From: Sulfurimonas sp.
GTDB lineage: Bacteria; Campylobacterota; Campylobacteria; Campylobacterales; Sulfurimonadaceae
Assembly (NCBI GenBank): GCA_027060825.1
Contig: JALSWC010000221.1
Location: forward strand, 1-34,393
Reading direction: 5' to 3'
Length of the DNA: 34,393 nt
In this document: positions 31,030 to 34,393 of the stretch, in pieces
Layout of the letters: each line of letters begins with the position of its first letter
How positions within the stretch are numbered: position 1 is the first letter of the stretch
Program-made: the position numbers and the translations under genes
Notes under the pieces: model-generated
The model's database searches: none
Seen by the model: the letters and a program-made list of their open reading frames with translations, nothing else
What the model was told of the DNA's origin: nothing

Positions 31030-31893
31030 ATGCATAAAAAAGTAAAAGTTGTATTTAAAGAGGTAAAACTATTTGTGAGTTCTTTTGTTGATAAAGAGCT
31101 TACTCTTTTTGCTGCAAGTTTGAGTTTTTATACTATTTTTACGCTTATTCCACTTTTGCTTATCGTTATGACAATTTTAACATCTTTGCCATCATTTGCG
31201 AAGCATTATCAGGAAATTCAAACTTTTATTTTCTCAAATCTTATGCCAGTGAACTCCGATACAGTAATGATTCAAATAAATAATTTTTTACAGAACTCTT
31301 CAAAAATAAGTGCTATAGGTATTCTTGCTATGTTAGTCTCTTCTGTACTTTTTTTCAAGAATTTTGAATACATTGCAAACAAAATATTTCATGCTCCAGC
31401 GAAAAATTTATGGGAGAGTATTACAACATATTGGACTCTTTTAACACTGACTCCTCTTGCTTTTAGTATCTCTTTTTATATTACTGGGTACATTGTAAAT
31501 GCAATGGCTTCTGATAATCTGAGGGTAAATTTAAATATTTTACCTTTTGTTCCATATATCATTATCTGGGGACTTCTTTTTGTTATATTTCAGATTGCTG
31601 TAAATACAAAAATAAATCCAAAAGCTTCACTTATTAGTTCTTTTATTATTTCCATTATATTTAGTTTGAGTAAAAATGCTTTTATTTATTATGTCTTTGT
31701 AAATAAAACATATACTACAATGTACGGCTCTTTTGCCATTTTAATGTTTCTATTTTTATGGATATATGTTTCATGGATTATCTTTTTATATGGTCTAAAA
31801 TTATGCTACATTATAAATAAAATATATAAAAATAGAGCCTACATAGATGAGCAACAGCAACAAAGCCTTTCTACTGAAAATACTCAAAAGTGA
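31030..31893 (+). CDS. YihY/BrkB family inner-membrane protein
   Basis: The 287-residue product carries about six hydrophobic segments and the family's N-terminal LTLFAASLSFYTIFTLIPLLL, plus later PFVPYIIIWGLLFVIFQIAVN and the C-terminal TMYGSFAILMFLFLWIYVSWIIFLYGLKL. The family was once called RNase BN but is not a proven RNase; its function is unknown. It starts seven bp after glcD. The hydrophilic C-terminal tail (ending QQQQSLSTENTQK) lies in a 93-bp overlap with the convergent comEC. Confidence 0.9.
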   Translation: MHKKVKVVFKEVKLFVSSFVDKELTLFAASLSFYTIFTLIPLLLIVMTILTSLPSFAKHYQEIQTFIFSNLMPVNSDTVMIQINNFLQNSSKISAIGILAMLVSSVLFFKNFEYIANKIFHAPAKNLWESITTYWTLLTLTPLAFSISFYITGYIVNAMASDNLRVNLNILPFVPYIIIWGLLFVIFQIAVNTKINPKASLISSFIISIIFSLSKNAFIYYVFVNKTYTTMYGSFAILMFLFLWIYVSWIIFLYGLKLCYIINKIYKNRAYIDEQQQQSLSTENTQK

Positions 31894-33084
31894 TAAAATA
31901 ATTTCAACAAATAAATAGCTAATGTTAAGATGCTCTTGGAGTGCGTTTAGCTTGGCATTAAGGAGTAGATTTACAATAGGGTCAAGCAAATTTCCAAAAC
32001 CAAAGAGATGCAAAAAGAGTGCTAGTGGGTAGAAGAGTGTAAAAAGGATTGAGTAGAGAATTGAGAGGGGATGGTAGAGTGAAAAATTTCCAAAAATAGT
32101 AAGTGAATAGGGGAGCATAAAGAGATATTCCCAAAATGGAATAAGTAAAAATTGTTTTGTTTTACTAGAGTCTTTAAAGTAGATAAGAAAGAGAAATATA
32201 TAAAAAACACCACTGACACTCAGCCAAAAACCTAGACTAAAAAGGAGTTTTGGAAAAAGTGCGAGTATGAGTAAAATGGTAATGCTTAGAGTCTGCATTG
32301 AGATGATTTTCATTCCTCTTTCATAGAAAATAAAGCCTAGTATAAGCATAATAAACGAGCGAAGTAAAGAGGGTGGGGTAGAGAGAAAAAGCATATAAGC
32401 CAGTAGTATAAACGCAGTGATTATAAAACTATCCTTTGTATAGCTTCTGTATGGAAAATAGCGATTTTGTAAAAATTTATAGGGATATTTTAACAGTAAA
32501 AAGAGAATAAAACTCAGCACTCCTAAATGAAATCCACTAATGGCAATAAGATGAGAAATACCAAGATTAGCGAACTGTTGTTGTAAATTTCTGGGTAAGG
32601 GTTGGGCTAAAAAGAGTGCCTCATAAACAGCTGTAACATTTTTATCTTTATGTTGGCTGGCTATTGCATTTGAGACTCTGCTCATAAAAGAGTTGTTATC
32701 ATAAATTTTGATAATTTTACTAAAGGTAAAGAAGGTTCGCATATATTCATAAAAACTGATTTTCCCAGCCCATATTTCTACTTTAATAGTTCTGCTTTTT
32801 ATGTTTTTGAGATTTTTACTTGCAATTGTATAAAAGGTAAAGCCATCATTACTTCGTAGTTTTAGCACTTCATAGCGTTTTAATTTCCCTTTTTTTGTCT
32901 GTTTTGTTTTTGTGTATTGTTTTAAGACGACTGCGTTTACTATTTGAGAATCAAATTTTGTAAGTTCATGGTATTTGTAGTATTGATACGATAGAGAGAG
33001 GAAAAAGAGAAAAAGAAGCAGTGCCAAAAGAGTAAAAATATCTCTTTTGGAAGATATTAGCTCAATACTCTCAATCTTTTGCAT
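31801..33084 (-). CDS. comEC: ComEC/Rec2-family DNA uptake channel protein
   Basis: The 427-residue product has one N-terminal membrane span, a soluble domain to about residue 150, then FANLGISHLIAISGFHLGVLSFILF, the ComEC/Rec2 competence-domain signature, followed by many hydrophobic segments. It lacks the C-terminal metallo-beta-lactamase domain of longer ComEC proteins. This short form matches what I recall of epsilonproteobacterial homologues. ComEC carries single-stranded DNA across the inner membrane in natural transformation. It follows dnaB by 15 bp, an order I recall from H. pylori (HP1362-HP1361). Its 3' end overlaps the YihY gene on the opposite strand. Confidence 0.88.
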   Translation of the reverse strand: MQKIESIELISSKRDIFTLLALLLFLFFLSLSYQYYKYHELTKFDSQIVNAVVLKQYTKTKQTKKGKLKRYEVLKLRSNDGFTFYTIASKNLKNIKSRTIKVEIWAGKISFYEYMRTFFTFSKIIKIYDNNSFMSRVSNAIASQHKDKNVTAVYEALFLAQPLPRNLQQQFANLGISHLIAISGFHLGVLSFILFLLLKYPYKFLQNRYFPYRSYTKDSFIITAFILLAYMLFLSTPPSLLRSFIMLILGFIFYERGMKIISMQTLSITILLILALFPKLLFSLGFWLSVSGVFYIFLFLIYFKDSSKTKQFLLIPFWEYLFMLPYSLTIFGNFSLYHPLSILYSILFTLFYPLALFLHLFGFGNLLDPIVNLLLNAKLNALQEHLNISYLFVEIILSLLSIFSRKALLLLLIYVGSIFIYFIYNVA

Positions 33085-33099
33085 TAGTGAAAATTCTCA

Positions 33100-34393
33100 T
33101 TAAATAACTGCCATTTCTACATTTGGTATATCAACTTGTGCTGATGAGGTATCCACATTTTCATAAACAGTCTCCACAGCACTTGCAAAACTAGGTGCAT
33201 CAACAAATCGTGTAAGTTTTTTCTGAAAAATAAGTTTTACATGACCTGTTGGACCATTTCTCTGTTTTCCAATGATGATTTCAGCATCTTCATTGTCTTT
33301 TTCAATATAGGTAGTAGTAAACTCTTTTCCCTCAGCTTTTGCAGCTTTTTCACGCTCTTTTTCCTCTTTGTAGAGGTAAACATCATCACGATAGACAAAT
33401 AAAATAATGTCGGCATCCTGCTCAATAGACCCAGATTCACGAATATCACTGAGCATCGGTCGTTTGTCATTTCTGCTCTCTAGTCCACGATTAAGTTGAG
33501 AGAGGGCAACAACTGGCATTTCAAGTTCACGAGCGAGCATCTTAAGTCCACGAGAGATTTCAGAGACCTGTAAGTGTCTATCTTGATTCCCAATTCCTGA
33601 CATAATTTGTAAGTAGTCAATAACGGCTATTTCAATCTCTGGATGTTGATTTTTTAATTTTCGTAGTTTTGAGCGTAGTTGGTTAATGTTGAGACTTCCT
33701 TGATCATCTACAAAAAGCTTTGCAGAGGTCATTCTATCTATGGCACCATTAAGACTACTCCATTGATCATCATTCATATCTCCTACACGAAGTTTTTGTA
33801 AAGGAATAAATGTCTGGATAGAGAGCAGACGCAACATCAACTGTTCAGCAGGCATCTCAAGAGAGAAAAAAGCGACACCTTTACCTTGCAGTATTAGAGA
33901 GTTTACGGTGTTTAAAATGAAGGAAGTATTGTGTGTAACGGTCATATCTTCAAGTAAAAATAAATGGTTACCATCAATAGTAAATCCATAATAATCATCA
34001 ACTTTGTCATATTCTACTTTGATGCCAGTACGGTGTACATCTCGTTTTGCTCTGAGTGGACGAGCCTGTTTGCGTTTTATTTTTGTTGGAATTGTATCAA
34101 GCGCACCGACAATGCGTAAACGATAGACTTCACACTCATATCCTATGCTTTTAATTCTTGCTGTTTTTGTTTTAAATGAGACTCGAAATCCGAGAGAATC
34201 AGCTAATAGTTTTATCTCTTTTGTGAGTTTTTTATCTTTTTGTACTATTTCAAATACATTGAATTTTGCATCATAGTATCCATCGCTGTCAATAAGCCCT
34301 GCAAGCAGTTGTAATCTATTTTTTCGTGAATTTTGCAAGTAGTGGTGTGGAATGTGTTTATTGTCTAAAACACCAAGACGGCGTAGTCTCGTC
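33100..34393 (-). CDS. dnaB: Replicative DNA helicase DnaB, intein-containing (3' part, runs off the right edge)
   Basis: The ORF track starts at a TTG at 34338, but the frame is open to the window edge and reads LGVLDNKHIPHHYL just before it, so the true start is outside. Visible are the 3' part of an intein (33928-34393) and the C-terminal DnaB ATPase domain (33100-33927). The extein begins TSFILNTVNSLILQGKGVAFFSLEMPAEQL, i.e. the second half of the Walker A region. It continues with IAVIDYLQIMSG (Walker B), ALSQLNRGLESRNDKRPMLSDIRESGSIEQDADII, and IIGKQRNGPTG. DnaB is the hexameric fork helicase. The region encoding the N-terminal domain and the first half of the P-loop is not in the window. 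Confidence 0.96.
   Translation of the reverse strand, partial: TRLRRLGVLDNKHIPHHYLQNSRKNRLQLLAGLIDSDGYYDAKFNVFEIVQKDKKLTKEIKLLADSLGFRVSFKTKTARIKSIGYECEVYRLRIVGALDTIPTKIKRKQARPLRAKRDVHRTGIKVEYDKVDDYYGFTIDGNHLFLLEDMTVTHNTSFILNTVNSLILQGKGVAFFSLEMPAEQLMLRLLSIQTFIPLQKLRVGDMNDDQWSSLNGAIDRMTSAKLFVDDQGSLNINQLRSKLRKLKNQHPEIEIAVIDYLQIMSGIGNQDRHLQVSEISRGLKMLARELEMPVVALSQLNRGLESRNDKRPMLSDIRESGSIEQDADIILFVYRDDVYLYKEEKEREKAAKAEGKEFTTTYIEKDNEDAEIIIGKQRNGPTGHVKLIFQKKLTRFVDAPSFASAVETVYENVDTSSAQVDIPNVEMAVI
33928..34393 (-). mobile_element. Intein in the DnaB P-loop, with LAGLIDADG homing-endonuclease segment (3' part)
   Basis: The visible 155 residues show intein landmarks in order. NKHIPHHYL and RLQLLAGLIDSDGYYD form the second LAGLIDADG region (block E). 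LTKEIKLLADSLGFRV is the following helix. DYYGFTIDGNHLFLLEDMTVTHN is the C-terminal splicing region (blocks F and G), ending in the essential His-Asn. The next residue is Thr, a valid +1 nucleophile and also the Thr of the helicase GKT motif. Insertion is therefore between Lys and Thr of Walker A, the place I recall for one class of DnaB inteins, including mycobacterial DnaBi1. The N-terminal splicing half and the first endonuclease motif are outside the window. Confidence 0.93.

Follow-up and report, generated by a model that had tools for sequence, protein, structure and literature searches.

The occurrence of an intein in the ATP-binding loop of the replicative helicase DnaB raises the question of what keeps such an element in place: it may be a mobile element that continues to home, a remnant that has retained splicing alone, a recent arrival from another phylum or a switch acting on host replication. 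The intein considered here lies at the end of a 34,393-nucleotide stretch of Sulfurimonas sp. DNA (contig JALSWC010000221.1, assembly GCA_027060825.1), referred to below as the window. An earlier note on this DNA, made from its letters, described an endonuclease-bearing intein in the DnaB P-loop that might still home, and suggested recent transfer or a conditional switch on replication. The reading favored here on the basis of sequence comparisons (probability about 0.9) is that of a homing class 1 intein which occupies the Lys-Thr codons of dnaB and would persist by homing, decay and loss.

In bacteria, DnaB has been described as a hot spot for inteins (PMC5784728), and dnaB inteins have been reported for Ca. 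Thiomargarita nelsonii and for BOGUAY (PMC4853749). DnaBi1 of M. smegmatis (PDB 6BS8) belongs to class 3: it has Ala1, Cys118 as the catalytic residue and Ser+1, and lacks an endonuclease; inteins of this class have no nucleophile at position 1 and are recognized by a catalytic Cys in block F (WCT triplet) (PMC6195587). DnaBi1 is inhibited by ROS through a Cys48-Cys118 disulfide trap (PMC6195587) and also by zinc (PMC7360933). The TerL1-a inteins of mycobacteriophages, which reside in the phage terminase, interrupt a P-loop after its invariant Lys and before its Thr, an insertion termed "classic" (PMC5050341).

Insertion Site and Reconstruction of the Gene

The minus-strand frame at positions 33100-34392 of the window is open and free of stop codons, and reads ...LLAGLIDSDG...NHLFLLEDMTVTHN followed by DnaB from TSFILN onwards; its Pfam matches (DnaB_C 1.8e-82, Hom_end 2.4e-11, LAGLIDADG_3 5e-6) are far beyond chance. 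The C-terminal part of the intein (residues 190-344 of 344), delimited by the open frame, by an overlap with contig C243 of the same genome and by alignment with 29 homologues, spans 33928..34393 (minus), and these last 155 residues comprise the second LAGLIDADG half together with splicing blocks F and G. The motif LLAGLIDSDG, which carries the catalytic-type Asp226, is located at 34279..34308 (minus; sequence, alignment, Hom_end and LAGLIDADG_3), and block G, with the penultimate His343 and the terminal Asn344, both invariant in 30 homologues, at 33928..33933 (minus). The last intein base, in TVTHN, is 33928. DnaB continues with Thr+1 (33925..33927, minus). This Thr opens the C-extein, belongs to the GKT of the P-loop and is the same residue in all homologues extracted from DnaB. 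The C-extein, i.e., the remainder of the replicative helicase and the stop codon, occupies 33100..33927 (minus; DnaB_C as above, and NF006306, replicative DNA helicase, partial). The insertion is in frame and separates the Walker A Lys from the Thr that follows it (AARPAMGK^TSF), which bears out both the identification of the element given in the earlier note and the junction described there (an intein ending in THN, the host protein resuming at the GKT Thr). That unspliced DnaB lacks ATPase activity is a fair inference; as full replicative helicase DnaB alone was found in this genome, the next best match being RadA by sequence.

A search of the same genome with DnaB_C located the N-terminal half of the gene on contig C243, the last 127 nt of which are identical to the last 127 nt of the window (reverse strand). 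The gene order on C243 is ispG, an MNT/HEPN pair and the DnaB N-terminal half (...AARPAMGK) leading into CLGRGTK...; intein residues 1-189 are found at L041:2409-2975 and the 127-nt overlap runs on to L041:3101. When both contigs are joined, a single uninterrupted 825-aa dnaB frame is obtained, formed by a 344-aa intein and a 481-aa DnaB, in which DnaB residues 1-206 are followed by the intein (CLGRGTK...TVTHN) and again by DnaB from the Thr. The N-terminal splicing block and first LAGLIDADG motif, expected upstream in the earlier note, are present on C243 (Cys1, NxxH, LGIWLGDG), and neither an upstream stop or frameshift nor a loss of N-terminal splicing residues occurs in the joined frame.

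The gene is nevertheless a join of two contigs from a draft (MAG-like) assembly, and breaks of this kind can hide a mixture of strains. The two halves could come from different strains, so that this exact gene would exist in no single cell; the frame does break at a contig end inside the intein, and the overlap is only an assembler-like 127 nt. Such a chimera appears extremely improbable in view of an overlap that is exact and in frame, and of the match of the DnaB halves, neighbor genes and intein halves throughout to a relative (L005/L132) which shows the same arrangement on a single contig, no join being needed (intein 97% identical; flanks 83-96% identical per 100-nt window except at the far end). 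On these comparisons the join is credible, although not proven.

The neighborhood of dnaB holds two further features. Between ispG and dnaB (L041:1079-1799) two genes resemble the MntA-HepT toxin-antitoxin pair; one encodes a nucleotidyltransferase (PF01909), the other a HepT-like RNase (PF01934, RNVISH motif) whose frame overlaps the beginning of dnaB. This stretch has no alignment in L005, L043 or L006 and looks like a species-specific insertion. Immediately downstream of dnaB (window 31801-33084, minus) lies a gene that is ComEC-like by sequence. ComEC is a DNA-uptake channel, and it may be speculated that uptake through it could aid homing.

Intein Class and Endonuclease Domain

The anatomy of the element was read from the joined gene and from its alignment with about 30 homologues. 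The splicing residues are Cys1, block B N61-E-S-H64, H343-N344 and Thr+1. Class 1 inteins have Cys or Ser at position 1, as seen here in a Cys1 that is invariant in 30 homologues, and a terminal His-Asn with Cys, Ser or Thr as the next residue, as seen in TVTHN^T. The canonical block B of this class is TxxH. The block reads NESH in this intein, with an invariant His64 and with Asn at the Thr position, a substitution that is nearly invariant across the wider family. Block F reads KVDDYYGFTIDGNHLF and contains no Cys, which together with Cys1 sets the element apart from class 3 inteins of the DnaBi1 type. Both LAGLIDADG motifs, YFLGIWLGDG (D128) and LLAGLIDSDG (D226), retain their Asp; in the alignment of about 30 sequences D224 and G227 are invariant and D226 nearly so. 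Pfam matches of the whole intein (Hom_end_hint 5e-24, Hom_end 3.4e-16, LAGLIDADG_3 4.4e-9) reveal, along with the two acidic motifs, the Hom_end fold of PI-SceI-type endonucleases. PI-SceI is the closest solved relative in a comparison of the sequence profile with the PDB (2e-35), and also ranks first in the PDB (E about 5e-26) when the search is made with a structural model of the 97%-identical L132 intein (pLDDT 93, pTM 0.91). Judged from its sequence, the element is a class 1 intein of full length whose PI-SceI-type LAGLIDADG homing endonuclease appears intact. It is probably still homing, as suggested in the earlier note.

PI-SceI (the yeast VMA1 intein), the closest by sequence and fold, has the Hom_end_hint/Hom_end architecture in common with the Sulfurimonas element, but the two share about 23% identity, and PI-SceI resides in a eukaryotic host gene and is longer (454 aa vs 344), about 90 additional residues separating its first LAGLIDADG motif from block B. 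DnaBi1, class 3 and devoid of endonuclease, resembles the class 1, endonuclease-bearing Sulfurimonas intein only in its position in the DnaB P-loop, and 6BS8 was not matched at E 0.01 when the family profile was compared with the PDB. The TerL1-a inteins are likened by site alone, as they share the Lys-Thr position in a phage terminase. A Thiomargarita sp. intein (L191, 64% identity) is alike in its MGK^T site, Cys1 ... HN and LAGLIDADG endonuclease, whereas it differs in phylum and falls on a separate branch of the intein tree, shared with phage DnaB inteins; this site comparison is based on the L191 sequence and not on the dnaB inteins of PMC4853749.

Distribution in Campylobacterota and Other Bacteria

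Among 199 relatives, the P-loop DnaB intein was found in 22 genomes of the same genus, besides the one under study, and in eight from other families of the order. Carriers represent approximately a fifth of the sampled Sulfurimonas genomes, about four fifths having no intein, and 22 of 397 well-assembled Campylobacterota genomes drawn gave a match at E 1e-60. Carriers include Sulfurimonas, Sulfurovum, Sulfurospirillum (in S. cavolei UCH003 the intein is present on a complete chromosome), Hydrogenimonas, Arcobacteraceae, Thiomargarita and Bacteroidota (Emticicia, Runella, Fibrisoma), and the Lys^Thr point is identical in every DnaB homologue extracted. A record labeled Helicobacter cetorum (L185) was set aside as a likely mislabelled cave MAG. 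Matches in two genomes (G022 and G139) were not counted as DnaB carriers, being located in phage terminases.

Phage terminase genes in genomes of the same genus or order also contain related inteins (L036, L037, L038, L040). In L036 (42%) the insertion interrupts the P-loop of the terminase (GHG^TGKS), and L038 has a shortened intein at this site without the second LAGLIDADG motif. DnaB genes with two inteins, one in the P-loop and one at RESG^SIEQDAD, were observed in Sulfurovum-type and Bacteroidota genomes (L159, L161, L162, L197, L198, L199, L206).

Phage DnaBs on viral contigs contain the same intein type at up to 60% identity, and 661 phage records hold relatives; since nearly all of the latter are below 60% identity, a direct phage donor for Sulfurimonas is not indicated. 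A plasmid collection considered as reservoir gave distant matches only, all below 60% identity.

Exchange within the Genus and Stages of a Probable Homing Cycle

On a tree of 112 DnaB genes of the genus, the 22 carriers need 20 changes, compared with an average of 20.4 for shuffled labels; the presence of the intein on the host tree is as scattered as chance. Third-position differences point in the same direction for two pairs. The gene under study and L005 differ at 138/470 positions (29%) in DnaB vs 39/344 (11%) in the intein (p 4e-10), and L018 and L023 at 250/470 (53%) vs 114/343 (33%; p 2e-8); for the latter pair the intein tree also conflicts with the host tree, with mild significance (AU p 0.04 and 0.03). 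The intein is not generally slow, because in L017/L035 the third-position differences are equal for intein and DnaB (p 0.78) and in other pairs the order is reversed. By these values the intein is clearly more recent than its host in both pairs. The endonuclease domain is under purifying selection in these pairs, its dN/dS being about 0.07 (0.01/0.144) between this intein and L005 and 0.04 for L018/L023; the value is about 0.26 for L017/L035, where both catalytic Asp are gone from L035. No long co-conversion tract is visible between this locus and L005, the DNA just outside the intein being 86-87% identical.

Other members of the genus carry alleles in different states. The L034 intein (G103) has lost 33 aa between the LAGLIDADG motifs, and in that of L035 (G020) neither motif has kept its Asp (LGGG, LIDGNG) and 53 aa are missing; the splicing residues are intact in both inteins. 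One bin (G049) contains an empty and a filled dnaB allele (L233, L234; contigs C100, C74) with exactly 127 identical nt, starting 5 nt after the start of the Thr+1 codon; these probably belong to one population, contamination being possible. Filled, empty, decaying and polymorphic alleles are probably stages of a homing cycle that operates within the genus.

The cycle would begin with synthesis of the 825-aa DnaB-intein precursor. Cys1 would attack the N-terminal splice junction and the chain would pass to Thr+1, after which cyclization of Asn344 and joining of the exteins would yield an uninterrupted 481-aa DnaB. Once released, the 344-aa intein is predicted to serve as endonuclease and to cleave, at their P-loop codons, those dnaB alleles that lack it, for which its youth relative to the host and its scattered presence speak indirectly; repair of the cut allele would copy the element in. 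In Sulfurimonas the intein would live as a parasite on a site that is both essential and highly conserved, sustained by repeated homing, endonuclease decay and loss.

Alternative Explanations

The states observed in L034 and L035 show that splicing can outlast the endonuclease in same-genus relatives, and this intein might likewise be a domesticated or dying element with an inactive nuclease. This is unlikely for a copy that has both LAGLIDADG Asp, shows a low endonuclease dN/dS against L005 and is younger than its host. Recent transfer from outside the phylum (from Bacteroidota, Thiotrichales or their phages) could be considered because the same codon is occupied by the same intein, with identities of 58-67%, in DnaBs of Bacteroidota, Thiomargarita and phages. 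However, in the intein tree the Sulfurimonas inteins, one Sulfuricurvum and one other Campylobacterales row form one clade (support 99), with this intein nested deep inside it, and the Bacteroidota form a separate clade (support 95); Sulfurovum-type and Sulfurospirillum-type clades are also found. The intein has the GC content (0.364) of its exteins (0.371, 0.378), and such an origin has hardly any probability. Exchange is mainly within genera, since intein clades follow genera or families, and cross-phylum events are older; of the recent transfer proposed in the earlier note, the within-genus form stands and the cross-phylum form finds no support.

A conditional switch would demand that splicing delayed by oxidative or other stress keep DnaB inactive, that replication pause and that the benefit to the host retain the intein. 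An intein at the ATP-binding Lys-Thr should prevent DnaB from binding ATP before splicing, and DnaBi1, also in the P-loop, responds to ROS and zinc as described above. The DnaBi1 trap, however, belongs to a class 3 intein, and no cysteines corresponding to Cys48 and Cys118 occur in the class 1 Sulfurimonas element; the adjoining N-extein (ARPAMGK) has no Cys. Only Cys1 is invariant among the four cysteines of the intein. Two that are frequent in the genus, C168 and C276, sit in the endonuclease (C168 is gone with the L034 deletion), and the N-terminal splicing region contains, besides Cys1, only C83, present in 2/30 homologues. The two cysteine-trap arrangements checked (adjoining extein and splicing domain) are absent from the sequence, a trap of another kind being possible. 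The lack of such a trap, the endonuclease-bearing class 1 nature of the element and its random presence on the host tree, with most close relatives devoid of it, argue against a conserved regulatory role, and the switch proposed in the earlier note finds no support and is very unlikely. That the intein is kept in Campylobacterota partly as a brake on replication, through slow or conditional splicing with sensing unlike the known cysteine traps, is similarly doubtful, and even less to be expected. The homing class 1 intein with its cycle of decay and loss is the preferred explanation.

Significance and Perspectives

The open literature yielded no paper that links an intein with Sulfurimonas, Sulfurovum or Campylobacterota, and among the open papers listed for Epsilonproteobacteria, Campylobacter and Arcobacter no title or abstract reports an intein in a Campylobacterota chromosome. 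On open papers the DnaB P-loop intein is apparently, and provisionally, undescribed in the phylum. The statement in the earlier note that no such case had been described agrees with these papers but not with the public genomes, many of which (e.g., S. cavolei UCH003) contain the intein unremarked. This kind of intein was already known and its documented range is extended; the new elements are its breadth in Campylobacterota and the picture of a homing cycle in Sulfurimonas.

An intein of the replicative helicase has a wide distribution in a phylum on which that literature offered no intein paper. Sulfurimonas offers a natural experiment in which, within one genus and at one essential codon, filled, empty, decaying and probably population-polymorphic alleles are found together, and both the homing cycle and the old claim of a P-loop stress switch are testable in culturable hosts such as Sulfurimonas indica and Sulfurospirillum cavolei.
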